Positions 25,916-47,878 of a DNA stretch of 58,154 bases are shown piece after piece. Both the position numbers and the translations under genes were made by a program. This DNA comes from a virus, in the IMG/VR virus record IMGVR_UViG_3300046692_000249, positions 1 to 58,154 of that record; one strand, given 5' to 3'. The notes beneath the pieces are model-generated. The model saw nothing but the letters and a program-made list of their open reading frames with translations, ran no database searches and had not been told where the DNA came from. The stretch's first letter is position 1. Each line of letters opens with the position of its first letter.

Positions 25916-27235
25916 GTGACTGAGACGGCACAGTTTGAGTTCGATCAGTCTTTCCAGACGAAGGTCGCGGCGCTGGTTATGCGCGACACGAACTTCGCCA
26001 TGAATACGAAGGATCTGATCAAGCCCGAATATTTCACCGAGGACGCAGCCGGCGCCCTTGTTCGCATCGTGCATGAGCATGTGAAGACCTATCGCTCAGT
26101 GCCCGACATGAAGATCCTGCCGACGATCTTGAAGGATGAGATCGCAGCCAAGCGCATTCGCTCGGACATGGTGGATCCGATCAAGAAGATGGTGCGCGAC
26201 GTGCTCACCACCGATCTGTCGAACCCGCAGTTCGTTCAGGACAAGGTGACGGACTTCGCCAAGCACCAGGCCGTCGAAGGCGCCATCATGCAGATCCTGC
26301 CGCTGCTCGAAAAGGGCAAGGATTGGGGCAAGATCGGCCAGCTGATGAAGGATGCCGTCTCGATCGGCTCGACCACCGACGGTGGCGACTACGACTTCTT
26401 CAACGAGATTGGCAACCGCACTAAGCAGCGCCACGACCTGAAGGCCGGCAAGGTCATCAGGAACGGCATCACGACCGGTTACCCGGCGATCGACGCCTAT
26501 CTCTATCACCTCGGATGGGGCCGCAAGGAACTGAGCTGCATGATGGGTGCAGCCAAGGCCGGCAAGTCGATGTCGCTTGGCGACTTCGGCAAGAACGCGG
26601 CGATGGCAGGCTTCAACGTCCTTTACGACAGCCTCGAAGTGTCCAAGGAAATCATTGCCGAGCGTATCGACGCCGCGATGTCCGATACCTTGATGCGCGA
26701 GCTGCACAAGGATCCTGACGCCGTCGAAGCTGCGATCAGGGCGATTGCTGCCAAGTCCGGCCACTTCAAGCTCCGTGACCATGCATCCGGCACCCTGAAG
26801 CCGTCTGCGCTGCATCGCGTCATCGAGAACTATCGCTCCGAAGGCATCATCTTCGACCTGGTGATTGTCGATTACGCCGACATAATGGCCGCGGAATATC
26901 GTTCCGACAATCTGATCGAGAACCTGCGCACCATCTATATCGACCTGCGCGCGCTCGCCCACGAGCTGAACTGCGCCTTCCTGACGGCCACGCAGACCAA
27001 CCGCGACGGCGCAAAGGCTGCAACGGCCAAGGCCACCGATGTTGGCGACGACTGGAACAAGGCTCGAACCGTCGACATCATGATCGGCATCAACGCGACC
27101 GACGCTGAGAAGGCTGCCGGCGAGGCGCGTCTCACCTGGCTACTGTCTCGTAACACCGAAGACGGCTTCAGCCTGCGCATCAAGCAGGACCGGGCAAAGA
27201 TGCAGTTCCTCAAGAAGGTGATCGGGAAGGAGTAA
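25916..27235 (+). CDS. DnaB-like replicative helicase
   Basis: 439 aa, GTG start with GGAG 9 nt upstream. Residues 1-140 form a helical N-terminal domain; the RecA-like motor has Walker A GAAKAGKS, Walker B LVIVDYADIM, the motif TATQTNRDGA and a C-terminal Arg-rich RIKQDRAKM. This is the hexameric helicase that unwinds the phage fork; the primase gene follows at once, as in T4 41/61 or T7 gp4 functions. Confidence 0.82.
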   Translation: MTETAQFEFDQSFQTKVAALVMRDTNFAMNTKDLIKPEYFTEDAAGALVRIVHEHVKTYRSVPDMKILPTILKDEIAAKRIRSDMVDPIKKMVRDVLTTDLSNPQFVQDKVTDFAKHQAVEGAIMQILPLLEKGKDWGKIGQLMKDAVSIGSTTDGGDYDFFNEIGNRTKQRHDLKAGKVIRNGITTGYPAIDAYLYHLGWGRKELSCMMGAAKAGKSMSLGDFGKNAAMAGFNVLYDSLEVSKEIIAERIDAAMSDTLMRELHKDPDAVEAAIRAIAAKSGHFKLRDHASGTLKPSALHRVIENYRSEGIIFDLVIVDYADIMAAEYRSDNLIENLRTIYIDLRALAHELNCAFLTATQTNRDGAKAATAKATDVGDDWNKARTVDIMIGINATDAEKAAGEARLTWLLSRNTEDGFSLRIKQDRAKMQFLKKVIGKE

Positions 27236-27236
27236 G

Positions 27237-28364
27237 ATGTCCAAGCTGTCCTTTGCACAGATCCAGGACGAGCTGGACATGGAGTTCTTCCTCGAGCGCG
27301 AAAGCATCTCCTTTCGCGAGACGCGCGGCACGTCCGGCCTTCAGCTGAACATCAAGACTTGCCCGAACCCGGCCTGCCGTGACGAACGTTGGCGCACCTA
27401 TTTCGGGATCGATAACGGGAAGGGCAACTGCTTCGTCTGCGGCCAGTCCTTCAACAAGGTCCATTTCGTCAACAACTATTTCGATTTTGGCGACAACTGG
27501 CGCGCCACCTTCCAGATGTGCGAGGAGATCCTGCGCGACCAGGGCTATCGCCCGAAGCGAAAGGCAATGGTGCGCGTTGAGCATGGCGACGTGACGCTTC
27601 CGGTATCCGATCCGCTGCCTCTGCCGGATGGTTCGAACCTGGCCTACCTCGAGCAGCGCGGCTTCGGCCCCGACATCTGCAAGTATTTCGAGCTGCGTTG
27701 GTGCCAGTTCGGCTGGTGGAAGTTCAAGGATCCTGACGGCAATACGCAGACGCAGAACTTTAGCGATCGCGTCATCATTCCGGTCTTCGACCTCGACGGC
27801 ACGCTCAAGACCTTCCAGGGCCGCGATCTGACCGGCGAGTCGGCAAAGAAGTATCTGTTCCCGATGGAACTGCCCGGAACCGGCCGTTACCTTCTGAACG
27901 GTCACAATGCCGTGGCGACTGACCATGTCTGCATGGGCGAGGGCGGTTTCGACGTGGCTGCGATCAAGCTCGCCTTCGATGAGGATTCGGAGCTACGCCA
28001 TATCGTGCCGATCGGCTCCTTCGGCAAGCATCTGTCCTATGGTGCGCCTGATGGTGACGATCAACTCGGTCGCTTCCTGAAGCTGAAGGCGAGGGGCATC
28101 ACGACCGTCACGATCATGTGGGACGGCGAAGTCAACGCGCTGCTCGCCGCGCTCGACGCCGCGAAGGTTCTGTCCGGTATCGGATTGAAGGTCCGTATCG
28201 CTTTATTGCCTTTCGAGAAGGATCCGAACGAAGTCACCGGCGACGTGACGCGCAAGGCTTTCTACGAGGCACAGCTCTGGACGCCGGCGCTCGATATCAG
28301 GTGGCGTCTACGCAACCCCTATGCAGAGGACGCCAAGAAGAAGGCCGCAGCTGCAAAGGAATAA
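27237..28364 (+). CDS. DnaG-like primase
   Basis: 375 aa, one base after the helicase stop. An N-terminal zinc-ribbon (CPNPAC ... CFVC), then a TOPRIM core with the acidic motif MGEGGFD near residue 233 and WDGE near 300. It would make RNA primers with the helicase. It is shorter than bacterial DnaG and lacks an obvious C-terminal helicase-binding domain; the Lys/Ala-rich tail may replace it. Confidence 0.8.
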   Translation: MSKLSFAQIQDELDMEFFLERESISFRETRGTSGLQLNIKTCPNPACRDERWRTYFGIDNGKGNCFVCGQSFNKVHFVNNYFDFGDNWRATFQMCEEILRDQGYRPKRKAMVRVEHGDVTLPVSDPLPLPDGSNLAYLEQRGFGPDICKYFELRWCQFGWWKFKDPDGNTQTQNFSDRVIIPVFDLDGTLKTFQGRDLTGESAKKYLFPMELPGTGRYLLNGHNAVATDHVCMGEGGFDVAAIKLAFDEDSELRHIVPIGSFGKHLSYGAPDGDDQLGRFLKLKARGITTVTIMWDGEVNALLAALDAAKVLSGIGLKVRIALLPFEKDPNEVTGDVTRKAFYEAQLWTPALDIRWRLRNPYAEDAKKKAAAAKE

Positions 28365-31774: not shown

Positions 31775-31976
31775 GAAGGCCGAACTAACAGATGAAGCAC
31801 GACGACTGATCGAAACTATCCTCATCGATTCCAGATCCGAGGACTTCTCGACCCGGCAGGAGGCGCGGTTTGCGATCATAAAGGTGCAGATCTTATATGG
31901 CCGTGAAGCGTTGGAGGTGGTCGAGGAAGAGCTGGCAACTCGATTTGGCGAAATGCAAGCCGGCGTCTGGGGCTAA
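31767..31976 (+). CDS. small hypothetical protein
   Basis: 69 aa, overlapping the previous gene by 8 nt. A single amphipathic helical protein, acidic and without cysteine. Its TAA overlaps the stop of the convergent repC gene (CTAA at 31973-31976). No family recognised. Confidence 0.55.
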   Translation: MREKAELTDEARRLIETILIDSRSEDFSTRQEARFAIIKVQILYGREALEVVEEELATRFGEMQAGVWG

Positions 31977-33079
31977 CGTTTGAGTAATCGTCGGACCTCC
32001 TGCGTGAGGTCAACCTGTCCGGACTTGATAAGCCGGACCAGCGCGCGGAAATAACCGCCCGCATTCTTGATCGGTTCGGCCCCTGGCGTGGGCCGCGCCT
32101 GCAGCTGGATCACGTAGACCAAGGTCGCAGCCGCCCCGAGCAGCCCGATTTCGCGGCCAGCTTCCTCCCAGGCCGACGGCGACACGCCAAACGCGCCCCG
32201 CATCCTGCCGACGCCTAATATAAACTCCCGATCATTTCGCACCTGCCCAATAAACTCCATTGCGTCCGGGCACGCCCTAACCAGGTCATCTACGGTCGCA
32301 ATCGGCCGCTCCGGCTCCCTCACATCTTCAGAGCCATTGTTACAAGACTGGTCAGGGGCATATTTGTTGTTGTCTTTGTGACGGCAAGAATTGCCGGCAG
32401 AGGCGGCGTAATATCTGCCTTCTGCCTCCATACGGAGCTGATGCCAGGCATCACGGGCGCTGTCGGCCGATCCCGTCGCCGATCGCCGCGGCGTGACTCG
32501 TGAAAGCTCCAGAGCGCGCGCCGTCAGATCGGTGATGTCAGAGTCCGGATAGACCTCGGCAAGCGTCCTGAGAGCTTCCTGGGCTGATCTGCGATGAATG
32601 GTCAGCTCGTCAAAGGCCAGCGCCCGCTCGCGCTCGCGCTCCTGGATCGCAGCCAGGCGCTCATTCAGCTCCGGCAGCTTCTCGAGGAGAGGGGAGAGGT
32701 CGAAGCCATAGGCTCGGATGATCTGGCCTTGCGCCGATCGCTGGGCGAACCGCTTGCCGTTGGCGCTGTCCTTGGCGACGATTAGACCTTCCTCAATGAG
32801 CCTCGCGAGCGAGTAGCGCACCGAACGCTCCGGAATGCCGGTTCTTTCCACAAGAAACTCGTTAGAAGGCCATACGAGGATCCTGTTTTCGATGAGTTCG
32901 CCGCGATAGCAGCCGACGAGTTGGTCCAATACGAAACGGGCGCTGCTTGGCAGCTGCAGCACCTTTGCCGCGATTCGAGCGGCGTCGAAGAGTTCTTGCT
33001 TGTCCGCGGAGTCCTGCTCTCGCGCCGATGGCAGTGTCGGCTTGAGAGCACGCCAACCGGACGGTTGTGCGCTGGTCAT
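31973..33079 (-). CDS. repC: RepC-like plasmid replication initiator
   Basis: 368 aa on the minus strand; ATG complement at 33077-33079, with GAGGGA upstream. It closely follows the RepC plan: an N-terminal winged-helix region (about residues 25-195) with LVWPSNEFLVERTGI and KDSANGKRFAQR, then a variable A+T-rich linker, then the C-terminal domain (about 260-368) with GVSPSAWEEA and NAGGYFRALVR, all matching motifs of repABC-family initiators. In plasmids, RepC binds an origin inside its own gene. No repA or repB neighbours are present. Homology is strong; its use by this phage is inferred. Confidence 0.88.
   Translation of the reverse strand: MTSAQPSGWRALKPTLPSAREQDSADKQELFDAARIAAKVLQLPSSARFVLDQLVGCYRGELIENRILVWPSNEFLVERTGIPERSVRYSLARLIEEGLIVAKDSANGKRFAQRSAQGQIIRAYGFDLSPLLEKLPELNERLAAIQERERERALAFDELTIHRRSAQEALRTLAEVYPDSDITDLTARALELSRVTPRRSATGSADSARDAWHQLRMEAEGRYYAASAGNSCRHKDNNKYAPDQSCNNGSEDVREPERPIATVDDLVRACPDAMEFIGQVRNDREFILGVGRMRGAFGVSPSAWEEAGREIGLLGAAATLVYVIQLQARPTPGAEPIKNAGGYFRALVRLIKSGQVDLTQEVRRLLKR
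32330..32400. other. A+T-rich segment inside repC (candidate oriV)
   Basis: Within repC, the stretch encoding the inter-domain linker is clearly richer in A+T than the flanking coding DNA. RepC origins in repABC plasmids lie in such an A+T-rich patch in the middle of repC. Only position and composition support this here. Confidence 0.4.
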
Positions 33080-34585: not shown

Positions 34586-36919
34586 ATGAACCGCGATATC
34601 ATGGAGCTGCGCGAGGTCGTCCAGAAACTCGTTCCTCTGCTCGCTGGCAAGGGGCTCGTTGTGACGCAGCGCGGCTCCCAGGCTTACGTGCGGACCAACA
34701 CCACGACGAAGCAGCCCGAAGAGGTCAACATCCCGAACATCCCGGACAATGCGTCCCAGGAGTTCGTCTGGGCGATCCAGGGTTTCATCGACCACGAAGT
34801 CGGCCACATCCTGCACACCGACTGGCTCTGGTATGGTGGCAAGGGTGGCGTATCGGAAGCCGACCTGCGCAGTCCGGCAAAGCGCGCCTTCATGAACACC
34901 CACAATATCGTGGAAGACGTGATGATCGAGCGGGAAATGGCGAAAACCTTTCCTGGCGCCCGGCGCAACATCTCCAACACCCGCAAGTGGTTCCTGGCGA
35001 AGATCACCGACGAGGCGCTCAAGGGCGTCAAGGATCCTCGCGAGCAGTTCAACTACCTGATCGTTCCGGCCATGCGCGCCCTCGGTGATCACGAGGAAAT
35101 GCAGGAGTGGATGGATAAGGGCAGCTGGTGGAAGAACAAGTATGTCGCCGAGCTCCTCAAGACGATGAAGCCGGCAACCCTCGACCTCCTCAAGACCTGC
35201 ACGACGACCAAGGAAACGCTGGTCATCGCCGAAGAGCTCCATGCGATCATCATGGGCAAGGTCGCACCCCCTGCCCCTCCGAAGCCGCCTGAAAAGAAAA
35301 AGGAAGACAAGAAGGACAAGGGCAAGTCGAAGGACAAGCCCGAGAAGGAGGCTGGCGAAGGCGAAGGTGACGGCGAGCGCGATCACAAGGAGCCGGAAAA
35401 GAAGGAAGAGGACAAGAAGCCCTCCGACGACGGCAAGGGGAAGAAGGACGATGAAGACGATAAGGGCGAAGGCGCCGGCGACGACGAAGACGCCGAAGCG
35501 GAAGCAGATGAGCCCGACGCTGGCGATGATGACGGCGATGAAGACGCTGAGCCCGAAGAAGACGCCGGCGACGACGAGGACGATCCTGCTGCCGATGAAG
35601 CTGATGGCGAAGACGCTGACGATGATGACGATGAGCCTGCGTCCGGCGCATCAGATGATGACGGTGAGGATGAGTCCGAGGCTTCCGGATCGGCTGCGGC
35701 CGACGAAGATGACGGTGAAGACGATGAACCGGCAGGTGCTGGTTCTGGTGGCGCCGGTGGAGCCGACGAGGACGGCGAAGGCTTTGAAGGATTCGACGAA
35801 GATGCACCGGGCGGCCCGCAGATCATTACGGCCGGCGCCGACGGTGGTGGAGTAGGCGACCCCGACGACGAGACTGAGGACGAAACTCAGGGCGGCGGAG
35901 GCGGTGTCGGCAACAGTATGTCCAAGTCCCTCTTCGACTTTGAGGACGGTGATTTCAACGAGGTCGACATGTCGGCGCAGATCGCCATCAAGATCTCCGA
36001 GGAAGCCGTCCTTGCGATGGATCCGAAGCAGTATCTCGTCTACACCCGCGACCTTGATCGCATCGAGCCTGTGGTGCCGCCCGAGGACATGAAGAAGACC
36101 TGGGTGCCGTCTCTCGAGGAAGACACCCGGCAGATGACCTCGAAGATGCGCAAGGATATCGAGCGTATGATGGCATCGCAGTCGCACGTCATCCGCACGC
36201 CTGGTCATCGAAACGGCAAGCTTCATGCGCCGTCGCTCTTCCGCGTGCCGCAGGGTGATCCTCGCGTCTTCACGCAGAAGCAGGAGCATGTGTCGAAGGA
36301 TACGGCTGTCGAACTGGTGATCGACAATTCCGGCTCGATGAGTGGCGCGAAGATGAAGCTTGCCATGACGGCCGGCTATGCGCTCTGCACCACGCTCGAT
36401 GCGGTCAAGATCGCCCACGAGGTCATCGGCTTTACGACCGGTGGCTGGCATCACCTGCCCCACACGATCCGGCAGGCGATCACCGACGATCTGCACAAGT
36501 CCTCAATCCAGTGGGACCGCGTTGGCCCGCTGGTGCTGCCGATCTACAAGACCTTCGAGGAACGCATCACCGCGACCGTCAAGGCGCGTTTTGCCTATAT
36601 GCGCGAGGCGCAGGCCGGCATCTCCGGCAACGTCGACGGCGAGTCCCTCGAATACTGCGCCGAACGTCTGCTCAAGCGCCCTGAAAAGCGCAAGGTGATG
36701 ATGGTTCTGTCTGACGGTCAGCCGGCCGGCTCCCACAAGGCAGGGCCGCATCTGTCCCATGTCGTCAAGCAGCTTAGCAAGATGGGAATCGAATGCATCG
36801 GCATCGGTATCCAGGATGACAGCGTGAAGCGCTACTATCCGAAGTTCACGGTCCTGCATAATGCCGCGGACCTCCCCGGCCAGGTGATGGGCGAAATCAA
36901 GCGCATCCTGTTGTCCTGA
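34586..36919 (+). CDS. CobT-like vWA protein with HEVGH motif
   Basis: 777 aa. Residues 60-130 hold a metalloprotease-like HEVGH (His70, His74) followed by NTHNIVEDVMIE, the N-terminal layout of vWA-like metallopeptidases. Residues about 228-445 are an extreme Asp/Glu/Lys low-complexity region. The C-terminal vWA domain has a complete MIDAS: Asp580-x-Ser582-x-Ser584, and later Asp in SDGQPAG. This architecture matches cobaltochelatase CobT and its phage relatives; the AAA+ partner (CobS/MoxR-like) is next. As no cobalamin genes are near, a role in remodelling a phage or host complex is more likely. Confidence 0.75.
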   Translation: MNRDIMELREVVQKLVPLLAGKGLVVTQRGSQAYVRTNTTTKQPEEVNIPNIPDNASQEFVWAIQGFIDHEVGHILHTDWLWYGGKGGVSEADLRSPAKRAFMNTHNIVEDVMIEREMAKTFPGARRNISNTRKWFLAKITDEALKGVKDPREQFNYLIVPAMRALGDHEEMQEWMDKGSWWKNKYVAELLKTMKPATLDLLKTCTTTKETLVIAEELHAIIMGKVAPPAPPKPPEKKKEDKKDKGKSKDKPEKEAGEGEGDGERDHKEPEKKEEDKKPSDDGKGKKDDEDDKGEGAGDDEDAEAEADEPDAGDDDGDEDAEPEEDAGDDEDDPAADEADGEDADDDDDEPASGASDDDGEDESEASGSAAADEDDGEDDEPAGAGSGGAGGADEDGEGFEGFDEDAPGGPQIITAGADGGGVGDPDDETEDETQGGGGGVGNSMSKSLFDFEDGDFNEVDMSAQIAIKISEEAVLAMDPKQYLVYTRDLDRIEPVVPPEDMKKTWVPSLEEDTRQMTSKMRKDIERMMASQSHVIRTPGHRNGKLHAPSLFRVPQGDPRVFTQKQEHVSKDTAVELVIDNSGSMSGAKMKLAMTAGYALCTTLDAVKIAHEVIGFTTGGWHHLPHTIRQAITDDLHKSSIQWDRVGPLVLPIYKTFEERITATVKARFAYMREAQAGISGNVDGESLEYCAERLLKRPEKRKVMMVLSDGQPAGSHKAGPHLSHVVKQLSKMGIECIGIGIQDDSVKRYYPKFTVLHNAADLPGQVMGEIKRILLS

Positions 36920-36953
36920 AAAAAAAGTAAGCGGGAGCTTAATATTCCCGCTT
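36919..36953 (-). terminator. minus-strand terminator after the vWA gene
   Basis: AAGCGGGA (36929-36936) pairs with TCCCGCTT (36946-36953). The 8-A run before it (36919-36926) is a U tract only on the minus strand, so it would stop antisense transcription although no minus-strand gene lies to its right. Confidence 0.55.
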
Positions 36954-36970
36954 GCATGCCATCGCAAAAC

Positions 36971-36988
36971 TAAGTAATGACTTACTTA
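36971..36988. promoter_or_regulatory. operator-like dyad, copy 13
   Basis: TAAGTAA-TGAC-TTACTTA, perfect arms, 39 nt before the AAA+ gene. Confidence 0.8.
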
Positions 36989-37027
36989 TAGCGCAACGCG
37001 AAAGCGCTTTTCACAAGAGGGTTAAAC

Positions 37028-38323
37028 ATGAGCCAGTTAGCAAACGCTGGTGCAGCTGCCACTGCACCGGACGATAAAATTCTGTGCCAGATCGACAACG
37101 TGCGCGTCCACTCGATCCAGAGCCACATCAAGAAGAACCATCCCGATTGGACGGTCGAACGCTACCAGGCCGAGTTCCCTGGTGAGCCGCTCTTCTCTCA
37201 GACCGCGCTTGATGTCATCGAGCGCCAGAAGAAGGAAAAGGAGCTCGCTGCAGCCGCTGCGCCCCAGGCCAACATGGCTATCTCTGCAGGTCTCGGGCCT
37301 TCCAAGATGAGCTTCAAGAACGCCATGTTCCATGAGCTGTTCGAACTCGGCAACGCGGCCGCTGCCATGTCGTCGAAGGGTGCGCCGATCCCGGTCAAGG
37401 TGCTTGAAGGTCTCGACGCTCAGTCGCTCGACTACCTGCCCGAGCTCGACAAGAGCTACGTCTTCAATATCGACCTGCTCAAGAAGGTCATCATCGGCAT
37501 GGAACTGAACATGCCGACCTACCTCTGGGGCTTCCACGGCACCGGCAAGACCACGATCCTGCAGCAGGCAGCCGCCCGCACGCGCCGGCCGTTCATCCGC
37601 GTCCAGCACACGATCAACATGCAGGAGTCGGACGTTCTCGGTCAGTGGACCGTTCGCTCCAAGGAAGTCGAAGTCGAGGAGCTCGACAACGACGGCAAGA
37701 AGGTCGTGGTCAAGAAGCAGCAGTCCGTGACCGAATACCAGCTCGGTCCCTTGCCGCTCGCCATGATCAACGGCTGGGTCTACTGCGCTGACGAATACGA
37801 CTTCGCCATGCCGTCGGTCACTGCCGTCTATCAGCCGGTTCTCGAAGGCCAGTCGCTGCTGATCAAGGACGCTCCTCCGCACTTCCGCAAGATCGCCCCG
37901 CATCCGAACTTCCGCTTTGTCGCGACCGGCAACACCAACGGCGTCGGCGACGAAACTGGCCTCTATCAAGGCACGCTCGTTCAGAACGCCGCAAACTATT
38001 CCCGCTTCGCGATCACCGAAGAGGTCGAATATATGGAAGCGAAGATCGAGACCGCGATCCTGCAGTCCAAGACCGGCATCGACAGCGCATCGGCTGGTAA
38101 GATCGTCAAGATGGCGAACGAAGTCCGCAAGATGTTCCGCGACGGCAAGATCACCATGACGGTCTCGCCGCGCGAGCTGATCCGCTGCGCCTCGCTCGGC
38201 ATTGCTTACGGTGGCAACTGGTCGCTCGGCATGGAGCTCGCCTTCGCCAACCGTCTGTCGCGCGTCGATAAGAAGGTTGTCCAGGAATACATGCAGCGCG
38301 TCTTCGGTGGAGTCGCTGCATAA
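37028..38323 (+). CDS. CobS/MoxR-like AAA+ ATPase
   Basis: 431 aa, with GAGGG 10 nt upstream. Residues 1-80 resemble the small N-terminal domain of CobS; the AAA+ core has Walker A GFHGTGKT (Lys174, Thr175), Walker B YCADEYDFA, sensor FVATGNTNG and a C-terminal helical lid. MoxR/CobS ATPases work with vWA partners such as the protein just upstream to insert or remove cofactors or remodel complexes. Pairing is conserved by gene order; the target is unknown. Confidence 0.82.
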   Translation: MSQLANAGAAATAPDDKILCQIDNVRVHSIQSHIKKNHPDWTVERYQAEFPGEPLFSQTALDVIERQKKEKELAAAAAPQANMAISAGLGPSKMSFKNAMFHELFELGNAAAAMSSKGAPIPVKVLEGLDAQSLDYLPELDKSYVFNIDLLKKVIIGMELNMPTYLWGFHGTGKTTILQQAAARTRRPFIRVQHTINMQESDVLGQWTVRSKEVEVEELDNDGKKVVVKKQQSVTEYQLGPLPLAMINGWVYCADEYDFAMPSVTAVYQPVLEGQSLLIKDAPPHFRKIAPHPNFRFVATGNTNGVGDETGLYQGTLVQNAANYSRFAITEEVEYMEAKIETAILQSKTGIDSASAGKIVKMANEVRKMFRDGKITMTVSPRELIRCASLGIAYGGNWSLGMELAFANRLSRVDKKVVQEYMQRVFGGVAA

Positions 38324-38967
38324 TGGCAATCGTTCGCGATCCGAAGCTCGACAAGGTCCAGGTCCGGGCCTTTGCATCCAAGGTTCTCAGGCGCGTTCAC
38401 GCGCTTGGGGCCAGGACGCAGACCATCGACGATATCGAAAGTGAGTTGTGGGTTGCCTGGTGCATCGCCTGCGATCGCTACAATGCCGAAGCTGGTGCTG
38501 CGTTCGCGACCTTCCTTTATTGCGGCATGCGCCGGCATATCAACCGGTGGATCGAGAAGAACTTCGAACGCTTCCACGAAGAGACCATCGCCGCATCCCT
38601 GGACGCGGATATCGAGCTCGATGGTCAGGAAGGTCGCGGCAGCCAGGTCGGCCAGCTCGTCGCCGATCCGAACATGACCCAGGACGAAGCCTATCAGCGC
38701 GAGAACTGCTTCGCCTACGCGCTGAGCCGGGTATCGCCGCGCGCCGGCCAGTTCCTGAAGTTCCTGAAGGACCATCCGCCCGAGCTGATCCAGAGCATGA
38801 GGGATCTCGAAGCCAAGGCCGCATATGCCAAGGAGTGCGGCGTCAATTACGCCATGCCCCACCGTCTCACCTCATCGATGATCCTCGACTTCATGGGCGC
38901 CAGCCGCGTCGAGCGCAAGCAGATCATGGATGAAGTTACCCAGATCGGGCAGCTGATTTCGCAGTAG
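38323..38967 (+). CDS. sigma-70-like factor (region 2 present)
   Basis: 214 aa, TAATG overlap with the ATPase. Residues about 35-80 fit sigma region 2: DDIESELWVAWC, then FATFLYCGMRRHINRWIEKN, which matches the core-binding and -10-recognition helices. A shorter, less clear region 4-like segment is near the C terminus (residues 140-205). It may direct RNA polymerase to the phage CGCTATAA promoters; that link is inferred. Confidence 0.65.
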   Translation: MAIVRDPKLDKVQVRAFASKVLRRVHALGARTQTIDDIESELWVAWCIACDRYNAEAGAAFATFLYCGMRRHINRWIEKNFERFHEETIAASLDADIELDGQEGRGSQVGQLVADPNMTQDEAYQRENCFAYALSRVSPRAGQFLKFLKDHPPELIQSMRDLEAKAAYAKECGVNYAMPHRLTSSMILDFMGASRVERKQIMDEVTQIGQLISQ

Positions 38968-39528: not shown

Positions 39529-42500
39529 ATGCATTCGGTTCTCGCAGCGCGGACTGACTTCTCAGTCGGCGAAAGCATCCTCACGACCAAGCGTCTGATC
39601 AAGAACGCCGTCGATGTCGGTGCAAAGGCCGTCGCCATGACCGACACTATGTCGATCACCGGCATGATCGATTTCACCAATAAGGCGAAGGCTGAAAAGC
39701 TGAAGCCGATTATCGGTGTTCGCCTGCGCCTGGTCGACAATCCGACCTGGCGTCCGGGCAAGGACGAAAAGAAGAAAGATATGCCGCGCGCATACTTCCT
39801 GACGCTCTATGCGCTCAAGGAAGCCGGCATGAAGGGTATCTTCCGGCTGCTGACGCTCGCCAATTCCGATGACCGCTTCTACTACGAGTCCAAGCTCGGC
39901 TTCGAGGATCTCTATGCGGAGTTGAGAGGTCTCTCAGCGAACGATGTGGCGATTGTTCTTGGTGATGCCCACTCAGTTCTGGAGCATCCGAGCGCCAACG
40001 ATATCGTGGATAAGCTGAATACGCTTGTCGCTCACCTTTATGCGCCGCTGATTCCGATCGACACGCCCTACTACGGCCGCCTGAACAATCTGGCACTATC
40101 ACAGGTTGTCGATAACGCGGTTCGCCCGATCGTCGTGCGTCCGGCATTCTACGGTCAGGGCGAAGCCGACACTCAGGAAATCATGACGGCGATCTCCGAG
40201 AACCATAAGGTGACGGATGGCTGGTTCAGGTCGCGGCACAATCGCGACATGCACGTCATGGGCGCGCCCGAGCTCGTCGGCGAAATGAAGAAGGCCGTCG
40301 CCCATCTGGTCAAGCGCGGGAATGATCCGACGTTCGTCGCGGCTCAGTTCAAGAGGGGCCTTATCGCTACGGCTGAGCTGGTCGACGCCGTCGAATACGA
40401 ATGGAAGAAGGCCGAGGTCTCGCTGCCGGTCATGGCACCGAATGAATTCGCCGCAGTCGTGGAAGAGTGTAAGAAGGGCTGGAAGACGCGCTTCGACAAG
40501 CCGATCTTCGGGCATCAGCCCGACGCGAAGGAGCTGGTCGAGGTCTACAAGCCCCGCCTCGCCTATGAGCTTGAGACGCTGAAGCGGTTGAACTTCTCGG
40601 GCTACTTCCTGCTCGTGCAGGACGTGGTCCAGTTCGCCAAGAGCAGCGGCATCATGGTTGGCCCTGGTCGTGGTTCCGTGGGCGGATCCCTCGTCGCGTA
40701 TCTGATGGGCATTACCGAGTGCGATCCGATCCGCTTCGGCCTGCTCTTCGAACGCTTCATCAACCCTGAGCGTATCGACTTGCCCGACGCTGACCTCGAC
40801 TTCATGTCCGAGCGCCGGCACGAGGTCTTCGAATATCTGACCAAGAAGTATGGCGAGGCGCGCGTCGCTGGCGTCAACAACTATGGCACGCTCGGCTCTG
40901 CGTCTGCGATCCGCGATGTCGGCCGCGTCACCAATATTCCTGAAAAGGACTATTCCGTTTCGAAGTATGTGCCGAAGCTGCACGGCCAGAACGTGCCGCT
41001 GCCGGAAGGCCGTAAGCAGGTCGCGGAAATCGATGCCTTCGCGCTGAACTATCCGACCCACTGGGGTATTATGGAGCGCCTCGAAGGCACCATCCGCAAC
41101 TTCAGCCAGCACGCAGGCGGCGTCATCGTCGGCGGGGTCGATATTGTCGATCGCGCCGTTATTGAGCGGCGCAAGGACGGCAACGTCGTCTGTTGGGACA
41201 AGCGCATCGTTGAAGACCAGGGCCTCGTCAAGATGGACGTTCTCGGACTCAACACGCTCGATCTTATGACGCTGGCGCTCGACTATATCCGCGAGAACTC
41301 GGGCAAGCGCCTCGATTTGAACCGCATTCCCCTCAATGACGAGAAGGTGCTGGCGAACTTCGCCAAGGCTCACACGACCGCCATCTTCCAGTTCGAGTCA
41401 GGCGGTATGCGCCGGCTGCTGAAGGAGCTCGGCCGCGACGGCTCGATCACCTTCGACGATATCACCGCGGCGACCGCGCTCTACCGTCCTGGTCCGATGG
41501 AATCGGGCATGATGGACTCGTTTTACAAGCGCAAGCAGGGCGACGAGGACATCGAATACGATCATCCGCTGATGGAGCCGGTGCTCGAGGAAACCTTCGG
41601 CGTCATCGTCTACCAGGAGCAGGTCATGAAGATCTCCCAGGTGATCGCCGGCTACTCGGGCGCGGCTGCTGACAAGCTCCGCAAGATCATGGGCAAGAAG
41701 CTGCCGGAGGAGATGAAGAAGGAGCGGAAGAAGTTCTGCGACGGCTGCGTCGCCACGATCAGCTGCACCGAGGAATGGGCAGGCGCGCTGTTCGACAAGA
41801 TCGAAGGCTTCGCCGGCTACGGCTTCAACAAGTCGCACTCGGTCGAATACACGCTGATCTCCTACCAGGCGATGTATCTGAAGACCTACCACGCTGCCGA
41901 GTTCTATGCGGCCGCGCTGACGGTGCAGAAGGAAGAAAAGCTCACCGGTATCATCCGTGACGCAAGGATGCTCGGTATCGAGGTCTCGATGCCCGATATC
42001 AACATCTCGACCGACCGCTTTGAAATGGCGACTTCGGTGCGCCTGGTCATGCCGCTGCAGAGGATCAAGGGGCTGTCAGAGAAGGCGACCAACGCCGTCC
42101 TCGAGGCCCGCAAGGCAGGTGGACCCTTTAAGGACAAGAACGACTTCCTGTCCCGCGTGGAGAAGCGCGTCTGCAACAAGCGCGTCCAGGAGGCGCTGGA
42201 GCTCGTCGGTGCGTTTGCGCGCATCGAGCCTGGCTCTGTCCCGGCCAATGACCCGAGCCGCATCAAGGACCAGATCGAGCTGTTGCCGGGCCTCATCGCC
42301 AGCCACGTCCCTATCGACCACGAGCTGAACAGGGACAACGACACGAAGATCGCGCTTGGCGAAGTCGTGGACGACTACCGTCGTGCGCACGGCCCGACCT
42401 CGGGCTCTGTCGACGGTTATCCGGTCAAGCCGTTCTTCGGTAGGAGCGCCGATTTCATGATCATCGCGGACGCGCCTGGCAACGAGGAAGACACGGGCGG

Positions 42501-42897
42501 TATCATGGGCTTCTCGATGTCGAATAACGCGGTCGTGGAAGCGATCGAAGCGGCAAGCCTCGATAGGTCGAACGCCTACTGGACCGCGCTCATCAAGCGC
42601 CCGAAGCGCGGCAAGCAGGTAGGTCCGGACGAGATCGCCATGTATTGGCCCTACCTCGAGCGGGAAATCGACCTGCTCAAGCCGCCCGTCATCGTGCTGC
42701 TCGGCTCGCAGACCGTTCGCCACTTCATCCCGGACTTCAAGGGTAAGGCATCCGACGCGGCCGGCAAGGTGATCTATTCGAAGAAGTATGACGCCAACAT
42801 CGTGATCGGCTTCTCGCCCGGCGAAATCTACCACGACCCGGACAAGCAGCAGAACATGAACGAGGTGTTCGGCGCCGTTGCGGATTGCCTCGCATGA
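39529..42897 (+). CDS. dnaE: DNA polymerase III alpha fused to a UDG-like domain
   Basis: 1122 aa (GAGGATAA upstream). A C-family polymerase: N-terminal PHP domain, palm with LPDADLDF (Asp420, Asp422, Asp424), fingers, and an HhH segment near 870-900. The PHP domain lacks the usual metal ligands: the HxH pair and the His of TDH are replaced (LAARTDFS, TDTMSITG). From about residue 940 the OB fold and C terminus of bacterial DnaE are replaced by a uracil-DNA-glycosylase-superfamily domain (IADAPGNEED, NAYWTALIKRP, VLLGSQTVRHF), but the family-4 cluster cysteines and HPS motif are absent. So a phage replicase, probably not proofreading through PHP, with a UDG-like module of uncertain activity. 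Confidence 0.85.
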   Translation: MHSVLAARTDFSVGESILTTKRLIKNAVDVGAKAVAMTDTMSITGMIDFTNKAKAEKLKPIIGVRLRLVDNPTWRPGKDEKKKDMPRAYFLTLYALKEAGMKGIFRLLTLANSDDRFYYESKLGFEDLYAELRGLSANDVAIVLGDAHSVLEHPSANDIVDKLNTLVAHLYAPLIPIDTPYYGRLNNLALSQVVDNAVRPIVVRPAFYGQGEADTQEIMTAISENHKVTDGWFRSRHNRDMHVMGAPELVGEMKKAVAHLVKRGNDPTFVAAQFKRGLIATAELVDAVEYEWKKAEVSLPVMAPNEFAAVVEECKKGWKTRFDKPIFGHQPDAKELVEVYKPRLAYELETLKRLNFSGYFLLVQDVVQFAKSSGIMVGPGRGSVGGSLVAYLMGITECDPIRFGLLFERFINPERIDLPDADLDFMSERRHEVFEYLTKKYGEARVAGVNNYGTLGSASAIRDVGRVTNIPEKDYSVSKYVPKLHGQNVPLPEGRKQVAEIDAFALNYPTHWGIMERLEGTIRNFSQHAGGVIVGGVDIVDRAVIERRKDGNVVCWDKRIVEDQGLVKMDVLGLNTLDLMTLALDYIRENSGKRLDLNRIPLNDEKVLANFAKAHTTAIFQFESGGMRRLLKELGRDGSITFDDITAATALYRPGPMESGMMDSFYKRKQGDEDIEYDHPLMEPVLEETFGVIVYQEQVMKISQVIAGYSGAAADKLRKIMGKKLPEEMKKERKKFCDGCVATISCTEEWAGALFDKIEGFAGYGFNKSHSVEYTLISYQAMYLKTYHAAEFYAAALTVQKEEKLTGIIRDARMLGIEVSMPDINISTDRFEMATSVRLVMPLQRIKGLSEKATNAVLEARKAGGPFKDKNDFLSRVEKRVCNKRVQEALELVGAFARIEPGSVPANDPSRIKDQIELLPGLIASHVPIDHELNRDNDTKIALGEVVDDYRRAHGPTSGSVDGYPVKPFFGRSADFMIIADAPGNEEDTGGIMGFSMSNNAVVEAIEAASLDRSNAYWTALIKRPKRGKQVGPDEIAMYWPYLEREIDLLKPPVIVLLGSQTVRHFIPDFKGKASDAAGKVIYSKKYDANIVIGFSPGEIYHDPDKQQNMNEVFGAVADCLA

Positions 42898-44576: not shown

Positions 44577-45650
44577 ATGGCGCTTAACCCCGAACTGAAG
44601 AAGATGGTCTCCGCTGCCAAGAACAAGTATTCTGGCGGAAGCGGCAAGACCGTAAAGCCCAAGGACGGTCGCAACACCTACCGTATCCTGGCCCCGACCT
44701 CCGCCCAGGCTCCCTGGGTTCCGGCTTCCGGCCAGTATTGGGCCGATCTCGGCGTTCACTGGATCAAGGCAGACAAGAACGGCAAGCCGCTCGTCGTCGT
44801 TGGCGACTGCGACACCGTTTACCAGCAGCCTTCGCCGCTGAATACGGCGATCGAAATGGCAATCGCCTCGGCAATGGATGAGGACTCGAAGGAGCTCTAC
44901 AACGAGTGGAAGGCCAAGAAGTCGGTTCTCCTCTGCGCTGTCGATTTCTCGGGCAACCTCGACGAAGTTGTTCCGCTCGAACTGACCGGCACGACCTTCG
45001 GTAAGGTCGCGGATCTCATCAACGTCTACGACGACGCTGGTAAGGACATCACCGACCCGCTGACCGGCGTCAACATCATCATCACGAAGACCGGCAAGGG
45101 TCTGAATACCAAGTATGACGTGATGGTCGATCCGGCGCCTGCCAAGCCGCTCAGCGCCGACATTCTGACCCGCACTCCGGACCTGCACGCCTTCATCGCG
45201 CAGAACTTCTTCCGCGGTGAGGAACAGAAGGCGCTGAACTGCATCGCACAGATCGCAGGCATCGCTGTTCCGGCGCTGACTGGTCCGTCTGGCCCGGCTG
45301 GTGTTCGCACCCCGACTGCAGCACTCGCCTCCTCGGCCGCTTCGGTCGCCGGCGCGAGCGTCGACAACTCCGCGGCTATCGCTGCTGAAGCCGCCCGCAA
45401 GGCAGCTGCAGAACAGGCTGCCGCGGCACAGGCCGCAGCCGCTGCCCAGCAGGCAGCACCGGTCGAAGATCCGCTCGCTGCAAAGCGCGCAGAGATCCTG
45501 CGTCGCCAGCAGGAAGCAGAGGCTGAGCTTGCCGCTCTGTCCGCTGAACCGGCACCGGCTGCCGCAGCCGCAACGCCGGCCGCTGGCATCTCCTCGCTGC
45601 CTGTTTCCGAACAGGACGCGATCCTCGCTGAACTCGATAACCTCGTGTGA
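44577..45650 (+). CDS. gp32-like ssDNA-binding protein
   Basis: 357 aa, AAGGA upstream. Residues 1-210 resemble T4 gp32-type SSB of phages: N-terminal basic YSGGSGKTVKPKDGRNTYRIL, then the OB-fold core ending NTKYDVMVDP. Residues 240-340 are an Ala-rich linker, and the C terminus (AILAELDNLV) is acidic and hydrophobic, as used for protein docking. It would coat the single strands made by helicase, FEN and SbcCD, and it lies in a cluster with flap nuclease and RecA. Confidence 0.78.
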   Translation: MALNPELKKMVSAAKNKYSGGSGKTVKPKDGRNTYRILAPTSAQAPWVPASGQYWADLGVHWIKADKNGKPLVVVGDCDTVYQQPSPLNTAIEMAIASAMDEDSKELYNEWKAKKSVLLCAVDFSGNLDEVVPLELTGTTFGKVADLINVYDDAGKDITDPLTGVNIIITKTGKGLNTKYDVMVDPAPAKPLSADILTRTPDLHAFIAQNFFRGEEQKALNCIAQIAGIAVPALTGPSGPAGVRTPTAALASSAASVAGASVDNSAAIAAEAARKAAAEQAAAAQAAAAAQQAAPVEDPLAAKRAEILRRQQEAEAELAALSAEPAPAAAAATPAAGISSLPVSEQDAILAELDNLV

Positions 45651-45768: not shown

Positions 45769-46722
45769 ATGTCCAAGAATTACATGCTGATCGACGGCAA
45801 CTCGCTCGGTCACTTCTACAACAACGCCAAGCCGCTCCATATCGGCGAAGTCCAGGTGCAAGCCATTTTCGGCTTCCTGAAGGGTCTGCGCGAGCAGATC
45901 GCCATGTTTCAGAATTATCAGCCGGTCGTCCTCTGGGATGGCGCGTCGTGGCGCAAGCTCATGTTCGCTGCCTACAAGGACAACCGCGAGAAGCGCGAAA
46001 CCAAGAACGAGATCAAGGTCCAGGACCAGAAGGACGCCTACAAGAAGCAGCAGCCTTATATTCGCAAGGCGCTGCGCTTCCTCGGCGTGCCCCAGGTTAT
46101 AGCGCTCAACATGGAAGCCGACGATCTCGGTGCGATCCTGACCGACCGCTACACCAAGAACGGCGCCAACATCATCCTCCTCACCGGCGACAAGGATTGG
46201 CTGCAGCTCGTCGGCCCCGGCGTCGTCTGGCGCGACTTCGCAAATCAGCGCCTGGTCACGCAGAAGGACTTCAAGGAATTCACCGGCGTCGACACGATCC
46301 GGCAGTTCGTCGAGGTCAAGGCGCTCGCCGGTGATATGGGCGACAACGTCGCTGGTGTCGGTGGTATCGGCCAGAAGGGCGCTGTCGATTTCATCAATCA
46401 GTATGGGTCGGTCTCGGCATTCACCAATGCCTGCATCCTCGAAAAGAGCATCGATGTCGCAAAGCTGCCCAAGAAGTATCGGGCGCTTGTCGATGACGAG
46501 GACAAGGCCATCACGTTTTCCCGCAACATCGATCTCATGGATCTTCGGACAACGGCGCGTCCCGCGCCCCAGGCGCTCGAGGTCGATAAGGGCGATCCCA
46601 GCAAGGAGAAGTTCCAGCAGTTCTGTGAGCTCCTCCTCTTCAAGTCGATCCTGAAGGATTTCGACAGCTGGATCTCCGTCTTCCCGGCTTTCCGTGAGCT
46701 GCCGCAGGCGCTTGCAGCCTAA
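45769..46722 (+). CDS. 5'-3' exonuclease / flap endonuclease
   Basis: 317 aa. PIN/FEN fold: N-terminal LIDGNSLGH (acidic metal site), MEADDLGAIL and GDKDWLQL metal clusters, then a helix-hairpin-helix GDNVAGVGGIGQKG. This matches T4 RNase H and T5 exonuclease. It would remove RNA primers and flaps; RecA and SSB are its neighbours. Confidence 0.85.
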   Translation: MSKNYMLIDGNSLGHFYNNAKPLHIGEVQVQAIFGFLKGLREQIAMFQNYQPVVLWDGASWRKLMFAAYKDNREKRETKNEIKVQDQKDAYKKQQPYIRKALRFLGVPQVIALNMEADDLGAILTDRYTKNGANIILLTGDKDWLQLVGPGVVWRDFANQRLVTQKDFKEFTGVDTIRQFVEVKALAGDMGDNVAGVGGIGQKGAVDFINQYGSVSAFTNACILEKSIDVAKLPKKYRALVDDEDKAITFSRNIDLMDLRTTARPAPQALEVDKGDPSKEKFQQFCELLLFKSILKDFDSWISVFPAFRELPQALAA

Positions 46723-46741
46723 TCAACACGAAGGAGTAAAT

Positions 46742-47878
46742 ATGAGCAGTCCTGCAGATATCATGAAGGCTCTGACCGGCGTCATTGGGGCAAACGATCC
46801 CGAAGCGACCGTCACCGCCTATCTGGACAGCGGCTTCCCGCCGCTGAATAACGCATCGAGCTCCGATTGGGATGATTGCTTCCCGGTCGGGCGCGTGATC
46901 GAAGTCGCCGGCCCGCCGTCATCCGGTAAGACCGCGATCGCGACGAAGGCAATGGCAGCGGCCCAGGCTTTGGGTGGCGTTGCAGCGTTCCTCGACTACG
47001 AGCGCTCCTTCTCGCTGAAGCTGGCGCCGAACCTCGGCCTCGATACCACGCCCGGCCGGTTCGTCTACAAGAAGCCGGAAACCTTCGAAGACGGCGTTGC
47101 GATGTTCCACCTGATGGTGGAAACCATTCGCGAAAAGAAGCTCATTAAGGCTGATGCGCCGATCTGCGTCGTCTTCGACAGTCTCGCGGCCATGACGCCG
47201 CAGTCGACGCTCTACGACTCCAAGGGCAAGCGTCGTGCTCCGGGCGACCGCAACATGAACGACAACACGGCGCTCGCCCGCGCGACCTCGAACCACTTCG
47301 CCGGCATCGCCCAGATCGCCGAGAAGTATAACGTCTGCGTCATCTTCCTGAACCAGATGCGCACCAAGATCGGCGTCATGTTCGGCGATCCGCGCAAGAC
47401 GACGGGCGGCGACACGCCTGAATTCTACTTCTCGCAGCGCCTCTGGCTCACCTCGAGCAAGATCGTGGACGAGAAGACGAAGGAAGTCATCGGCATGGAA
47501 GTGTCCGGTATCTTCATGAAGAACAAGGTTTCACGGCCGTTCGTGAAGTCCAAGTGGCGCTTCATGTTCCAGGCCGACGGCACCGGGCGTTTTGACCGTG
47601 AACGTTCGCTGGTCGAATTCCTCAACGAGCGCAAGCTCCTGATCGATATCGATCCGGCGACCGGCAAGGAGACCAAGAAGGGCTACTTCATGTGGGAAGG
47701 CAAGCAGTTGACCCGTGAAGGCATCGCGCGCGCCGTCGAGGCCGAAGGCGATGTCGGCTTCAACAAGCTGAAGGCTTTGCTGCCGGCCAAGTATGTCGCA
47801 CCGGTCGTCGCCGAGGCTGAGCTCGATGAGGTTGCCGCGACCGTCGGTGATGTCGAAGATTCTGCGGTCGCGGCTTAA
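46742..47878 (+). CDS. RecA/UvsX-like recombinase
   Basis: 378 aa from ATG 46742 (AAGGAG upstream). Walker A GPPSSGKT (Lys63), Walker B VVFDSLAAM, and the RecA motif LNQMRTKIGVMFG with the GG...T pattern. It would drive strand exchange and recombination-dependent replication. The C terminus is acidic, as in UvsX. Confidence 0.85.
   Translation: MSSPADIMKALTGVIGANDPEATVTAYLDSGFPPLNNASSSDWDDCFPVGRVIEVAGPPSSGKTAIATKAMAAAQALGGVAAFLDYERSFSLKLAPNLGLDTTPGRFVYKKPETFEDGVAMFHLMVETIREKKLIKADAPICVVFDSLAAMTPQSTLYDSKGKRRAPGDRNMNDNTALARATSNHFAGIAQIAEKYNVCVIFLNQMRTKIGVMFGDPRKTTGGDTPEFYFSQRLWLTSSKIVDEKTKEVIGMEVSGIFMKNKVSRPFVKSKWRFMFQADGTGRFDRERSLVEFLNERKLLIDIDPATGKETKKGYFMWEGKQLTREGIARAVEAEGDVGFNKLKALLPAKYVAPVVAEAELDEVAATVGDVEDSAVAA

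Follow-up and report, generated by a model that had tools for sequence, protein, structure and literature searches.

The 58,154-base virus record analysed here (the window) is a close relative of the Rhizobium phage B1VFA (122 kb). On its plus strand lies an open reading frame, 39529-42897, that begins with ATG, is free of internal stops, and encodes a protein of 1122 amino acids sharing 98.8% identity with the annotated DnaE of B1VFA. The replicase gene is accompanied by genes for other replication proteins (Table 1). The presence of a RepC-type protein supports a phage-plasmid life style, and the circular plasmid pRlX6 of Rhizobium beringeri possesses a DnaE, annotated as two ORFs, that is 95% identical to that of the window. 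The CobT- and CobS-like genes likely represent a MoxR-VWA type pair rather than genes of cobalamin synthesis. The protein described here is the replicase encoded by a Rhizobium phage of the phage-plasmid kind to which SSU5, nickie, and B1VFA belong.

Table 1. Features of the replicase gene and its surroundings in the window.
Feature	Residues	Position	Strand	Basis
DnaB-like replicative helicase		25916-27235	+	
DnaG-like primase		27237-28364	+	
RepC-type plasmid replication protein		31973-33079	-	
CobT-like VWA protein and CobS-like AAA ATPase, directly upstream of dnaE		34586-38323		conserved in SSU5, nickie, RHEph10
Sigma-70 region 2 protein, between CobS and dnaE		38323-38964		
DnaE-type replicase with C-terminal UDG-fold domain	1122 aa	39529-42897	+	ORF, family matches, identity to B1VFA DnaE
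PHP domain, metal ligands replaced (A6, R8, T40, R65)	8-165	39550-40023	+	Pfam and motif alignment
Polymerase core	311-573 (DNA_pol3_alpha), 576-742 (finger domain)	40459-41754	+	Pfam
Catalytic carboxylate motif D420-A-D422-L-D424		40786-40800	+	invariant columns
Helix-hairpin-helix, HHH_6	816-900	41974-42228	+	Pfam
QxELLPGL, candidate beta-clamp-binding peptide at DnaE clamp-motif position	915-922	42271-42294	+	alignment
UDG-fold domain replacing OB fold and CTD	937-1122	42337-42894	+	AlphaFold2 models and structure search
Former UDG motif 1: Glu replaced by D981 (invariant), E987 kept	979-991	42463-42501	+	UDG-domain alignment
Former uracil-recognition segment: Asn replaced by A1020, cluster Cys by R1024, basic KRPKxGKQ	1017-1031	42577-42621	+	alignment
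Former motif 2: catalytic His replaced by S1096 (Asn in most relatives), HPS by [NS]-P-G	1091-1101	42799-42831	+	alignment
gp32-like single-stranded DNA-binding protein (replication module)		44577-45650	+	family matches
5'-3' exonuclease (FEN type)		45769-46722	+	family matches
UvsX/RecA-like recombinase		46694-47878	+	family matches

The polymerase and its replication companions

Pfam families are matched along the protein in the order PHP, Pol3 core, fingers, helix-hairpin-helix (HhH), and UDG, each above its gathering score. All 36 homologues have the polymerase carboxylates D420, D422, and D570, in agreement with an earlier note on this DNA, which had described the polymerase core as intact and the PHP metal ligands as lost. 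The second claim holds as well: at the positions assigned to the ligands by motif, A6-A7-R8 occupies the place of HxH, T38-D39-T40 that of TDH, and G63-V64-R65 that of G-x-E. This loss is ordinary, since Timinskas et al. (NAR 2014, PMC3919608) note that DnaE1 proteins of major proteobacterial classes also lack PHP metal sites. In a full-length AlphaFold2 model (pLDDT 86.8, pTM 0.72), residues 1-905 match DnaE structures with Z up to 46; structure comparison gave Z 46 for the polymerase core against 5lew and Z 25.7 for residues 1-291 against an E. coli PHP chimera. With a PHP domain, a Pol3 core bearing its carboxylates, and an HhH region in this order, the protein is a C-family DNA polymerase (DnaE). 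The C-terminal OB fold and tau-binding domain of DnaE1 are absent, residues 937-1122 being predicted to form a UDG fold.

Between the HhH region and this domain lies the peptide QxELLPGL, in which, among 55 aligned sequences, Q is found in 54, P in 53, and L922 in 54; mean conservation is 0.78 over residues 911-928 versus 0.42 over residues 929-961. Its position makes QxELLPGL a candidate clamp-binding peptide, although the known clamp consensus, QxxLF, ends in Phe where QxELLPGL has Leu or Ile. Searches with PF02768 and PF00712, which did match the control genomes, detected no beta clamp in either the window or six complete relatives; the T4-type clamp family PF02916 gave no match, but as the control genomes likewise lacked one this is uninformative. 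A DnaQ-like RNase_T exonuclease is encoded by all six complete genomes, and thymidylate synthase by five of the six, B1VFA being the one without it.

A UDG fold in place of the OB and tau-binding domains

The Pfam UDG family matches residues 972-1104 with 42.4 bits (cut-off 24.3), and TIGR00758 scores 58.6 bits against a cut-off of 125.3. A domain model of residues 900-1122, built by AlphaFold2 with 35 homologues, has a pLDDT of 89 and a pTM of 0.84; within it, residues 900-929, the stretch that contains QxELLPGL, are of low confidence. The top matches of this model in Foldseek and VIA-align are family-4 UDGs and UdgX (Z 20-22, about 180 residues), with Z 21.9 and 2.3-2.5 Å over about 180 residues for 1l9g and 4zbx; the family-A polymerase of phage phiLo is matched through its N-terminal part (Z 14.7). 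In the full-length model residues 937-1122 match UDGs, and the fold begins near residue 937. The earlier note had placed a UDG-superfamily domain, from about residue 940, at the site of the OB fold, and both Pfam and the models bear this out, ruling out a non-UDG fold. A C-family polymerase is thereby predicted to carry a family-4-like UDG fold at the site usually taken by the OB fold and the tau-binding C-terminal domain (CTD).

The likeness to family-4 UDGs (S. tokodaii 4zbx, T. thermophilus 1ui0, T. maritima 1l9g) extends to fold (Z about 22 over about 180 residues) and to the Pfam and TIGR00758 matches, but not to the cluster cysteines, the catalytic His, or the recognition Asn. The motifs reported previously are present, as ADAPGNEED (980-988), YWTALIKRP (1017-1025), and LLGSQ (1057-1061), and so are the reported alteration of HPS, which reads S-P-G (1096-1098), and the reported lack of cluster cysteines, none of the four being present in the alignment of the window domain. 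Relative to family 4, the motif-1 Glu is replaced by D981, Phe by G994, the Asn that follows Thr by A1020, Cys by R1024, and the HPS His by S1096, whereas T1019, K1023, and E987 are as in family 4. The DNA-crosslinking His of UdgX (H109) is also missing, the loop past K1023 being short (KRPKRGKQ) and free of His. These replacements are general: in the 55-sequence set, position 981 is always D, position 1020 is A in 36, G in 10, and S in 8, never Asn, and position 1096 is N in 32, S in 14, A in 6, and G in 3, never His. As judged by alignment, then, the domain of the window lineage has neither the His for catalysis nor the Asn for reading uracil, and the cluster cysteines are missing too.

The altered segments are nonetheless well conserved. 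Among 36 diverse sequences the mean majority-residue frequency is 0.77 in the three former motif segments versus 0.62 elsewhere in the domain, and of 161 circular placements of the segment mask the true one alone attains this level. Residues D981, T1019, K1023, P1025, K1026, D1088, and N1090 are invariant, and close pairs yield dN/dS values of 0.04-0.20 in the UDG part versus 0.04-0.14 in the polymerase core. The remodelled active-site segments are thus under strong purifying selection, and the low dN/dS together with the high conservation of the former motifs shows that the domain is not a drifting remnant and that the old active-site face serves a function.

Distribution of the fusion and splitting of the gene

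The window protein was used to fetch 66 IMG/VR loci, and these loci and annotated relatives provided an alignment of 55 full-length proteins, including that of the window, in each of which polymerase and UDG domain occupy a single open frame. No second UDG was found; each genome has one UDG match, always in the polymerase frame. A false fusion through a missed stop or a gene split, with the C-terminal part as a separate gene, is thereby ruled out. Whole-length alignments extend to proteins of Stenotrophomonas, Pseudomonas, Klebsiella, Escherichia, and Salmonella phages, and an HMM of the UDG part of the window clade picks up both the SSU5 type (E about 1e-23) and the nickie type. Plasmid records matching the SSU5-type domain number 875 and those matching the window-type domain 187, some of the latter being ordinary stand-alone UDGs, with overlap between the two sets in Acinetobacter. 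A search of genome contigs returned six loci, every one on a possible phage-plasmid or prophage.

The earlier note had regarded a replicase and a UDG-like module in one chain as uncommon. This view is not upheld: the architecture was published in 2014 (PMC3919608), is named in the GenBank note for RHEph10, is covered end to end by phrog_405, and recurs in the 875 plasmid records, and it is therefore already known and fairly common, being frequent in large phage-plasmids. Timinskas et al. describe a DnaEX variant of some Yersinia pestis and Salmonella enterica strains, in which a PHP-Pol3-(HhH)2 core ends in a UDG domain (PF03167) instead of OB and CTD; the window protein has this same arrangement. 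In those strains DnaEX-UDG is an additional polymerase, and the passages on it contain no analysis of the UDG catalytic residues. The protein of Salmonella phage SSU5 can be aligned end to end with that of the window, at 36% identity, but has an in-frame insert near residue 745 that the window clade of rhizobial phages lacks.

In some relatives the gene is split near residue 745, well before the UDG domain begins. In L056, L068, L080, L086, L107, L112, L140, and L153, dnaE is divided into two ORFs at one site (window residues about 742-750, about 41752-41778), and the N-terminal half ends in a homologous tail of about 45-50 residues, the same that forms the in-frame insert of SSU5. A NUMOD4-HNH homing-endonuclease ORF separates the halves in L080, and only about 67 bases do so in L107. 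A search of nine loci with Rfam at gathering thresholds gave no group I intron at this site, and Pfam gave no intein match for the intein-like tail of about 50 residues. In an A. baumannii phage-plasmid (L315:4197-5462, 421 aa, adjoining a NUMOD4 protein) and a K. pneumoniae phage-plasmid (L316:3332-4501, 389 aa), the C-terminal half is annotated as 'uracil-DNA glycosylase (family protein)'. Such names are probably misannotations, and they amount to an annotation problem for phage-plasmids of Acinetobacter and Klebsiella, as the SSU5-type domains examined have no catalytic residues. Separate UDG ORFs in L207 and L182 were not counted as natural splits; the polymerase is also frame-changed there, which suggests assembly frameshifts. 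The frame of L214 stops before the UDG domain, through truncation or error.

Loss of the glycosylase motifs and the role of the domain

Alignment of the UDG domains reveals three kinds. In the first (L204, L205, L206, L208, L209, and L216) the motifs are complete or nearly so, comprising (G/L)E-x-P, an Asn that precedes a cluster Cys, HP(S/A), CxxC, and the final cluster cysteine; single positions vary in L209 and some other members. A further complete-motif relative, L210 (4905-9536), contains a large intein-like insert within the UDG domain, at the conserved KC and ending in VSHN before the Cys. The intermediate kind (L220, L223, L225, L235, L057, L150, and others) keeps CxxC and the last cysteine, with D in place of Glu and with Asn and His absent, except for L242, whose motif 2 does contain a His; in L215 four cysteines remain but the catalytic residues have been lost. 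The third kind, the window clade and the SSU5 type, has neither catalytic residues nor cysteines. In a midpoint-rooted FastTree phylogeny of the core polymerase, UDG-bearing sequences fall into one clade (support 0.91) with low support at several inner nodes, and L239 and L240, which have an OB-like C-terminus, lie inside it on a long branch. A single capture of a UDG by C-family replicases is favoured, though not proven, by this tree, and the ancestral domain would have been an active UDG. The tree hints that catalysis was lost before the cysteines, several of the nodes concerned being weakly supported. More tentatively, a family-4 UDG captured once may have served C-family phage replicases as an active, fork-coupled glycosylase, as it still might in lineages with complete motifs, and have been changed stepwise in phage-plasmids into a non-catalytic DNA-reading module, with a new pocket recognising one particular base or structure at the fork. 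Neither the decay series nor the conserved remodelled pocket seems to have been reported before; our literature search, which had most subscription journals outside its reach, found no analysis of the catalytic residues of the C-family fusion.

UDG domains also occur in family-A phage polymerases, including PaBG gp205, phiLo (9qhs), PMBT14, Lebethron, and LysYB1, which likewise unite a UDG fold and a phage replicase in one chain. The polymerase family is unrelated, however, and the UDG lies at the opposite, N-terminal end; some of these polymerases (L075) retain the catalytic residues while in others they are changed, and in a weakly supported UDG-domain tree these domains do not group with those of the C family. 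The PaBG paper suggests a repair function for the N-terminal domain (PMC7412058), and a 2024 survey of phage polymerases makes no mention of UDG (PMC11348598).

On balance, we lean towards the view that a catalytically dead UDG has been kept as a DNA-holding module in the replicase. The domain would no longer excise uracil but would grip DNA, either the template strand ahead of the polymerase or the duplex behind it, thereby making the DNA contacts that the missing OB fold would otherwise provide. QxELLPGL, in the flexible linker before the domain, would dock the host beta clamp, as proposed because a clamp of the phage's own went undetected, and proofreading would come from the separate DnaQ-like exonuclease. 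Consistent with this model are the high-confidence UDG fold, the replacement of catalytic positions throughout the 55 sequences, purifying selection on the domain, the high conservation of the former active-site segments, the basic invariant residues K1023 and K1026, the graded motif series in one mostly UDG-bearing clade, and the clamp and exonuclease inventory of the six genomes. A functional precedent is vaccinia D4, a UDG that belongs to the processivity factor of the polymerase (PMC5682278). Its complex with A20 also places a UDG fold as a DNA-holding part inside a viral replicase, but D4 is a separate subunit of another UDG family and itself a glycosylase, so the likeness is one of analogy only. 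Against the model, conservation of the old pocket (D981, E987) could equally fit a base or ligand that is still read, the domain could bind protein instead of DNA, the clamp interaction is putative, the peptide being a motif at the expected place, and the tree has moderate support, a midpoint root, and OB-bearing members within the clade.

The earlier note had left the domain as either a sensor of uracil or damaged bases or a structural DNA-binding module, and the latter fits better, as the family-4 Asn, His, and Phe positions are changed in the window clade. We consider it unlikely that the domain is a non-cleaving sensor that checks the template for uracil or some other base and retards or halts the polymerase, in the manner of the archaeal family-B read-ahead pocket. 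The remodelled pocket segments are the best-conserved part of the domain, which speaks for a sensor, but the residues that would contact uracil are now A1020 and S1096. A dUTPase in three of the six complete relatives (B1VFA, RHEph10, and ANB28) implies that avoiding uracil is important for some of these phages, yet no dUTPase was matched in SSU5, nickie, or Cyrano, and the annotation of B1VFA names no pyrimidine-modification gene. Among family-A phage polymerases the recurrent UDG folds lie in some cases beside thymidylate-synthase or pyrimidine-hydroxymethylase genes, and the phiLo structure was solved 'with modified template', both of which would suit a sensor. Rather more doubtful is a protein-docking platform, in which the tau-binding CTD was exchanged for contact with the phage helicase, primase, SSB, or the CobS/CobT-like AAA-VWA pair; the domain does sit at the OB and tau-binding place, and SSU5, nickie, RHEph10, and the window all have the CobT/CobS-like genes a short way upstream of dnaE, but the most conserved residues fall in the former base-contact and DNA-contact segments. 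An active glycosylase whose altered chemistry employs the invariant D981 (the position of UdgX E52) on uracil or another base is very improbable in the window clade, where, despite the acidic residue and the retained E987, none of the motif-2 His, recognition Asn, stacking Phe, and cluster cysteines survives, although the six relatives with family-4 motifs may be active.

UDG folds have thus been joined to viral replicases in several settings: at the C-terminus of C-family polymerases, at the N-terminus of family-A polymerases, and as the D4 subunit in poxviruses. The existence of complete-motif and motif-less versions of one and the same fusion makes the purpose of coupling a replicase to a UDG directly testable by comparison.
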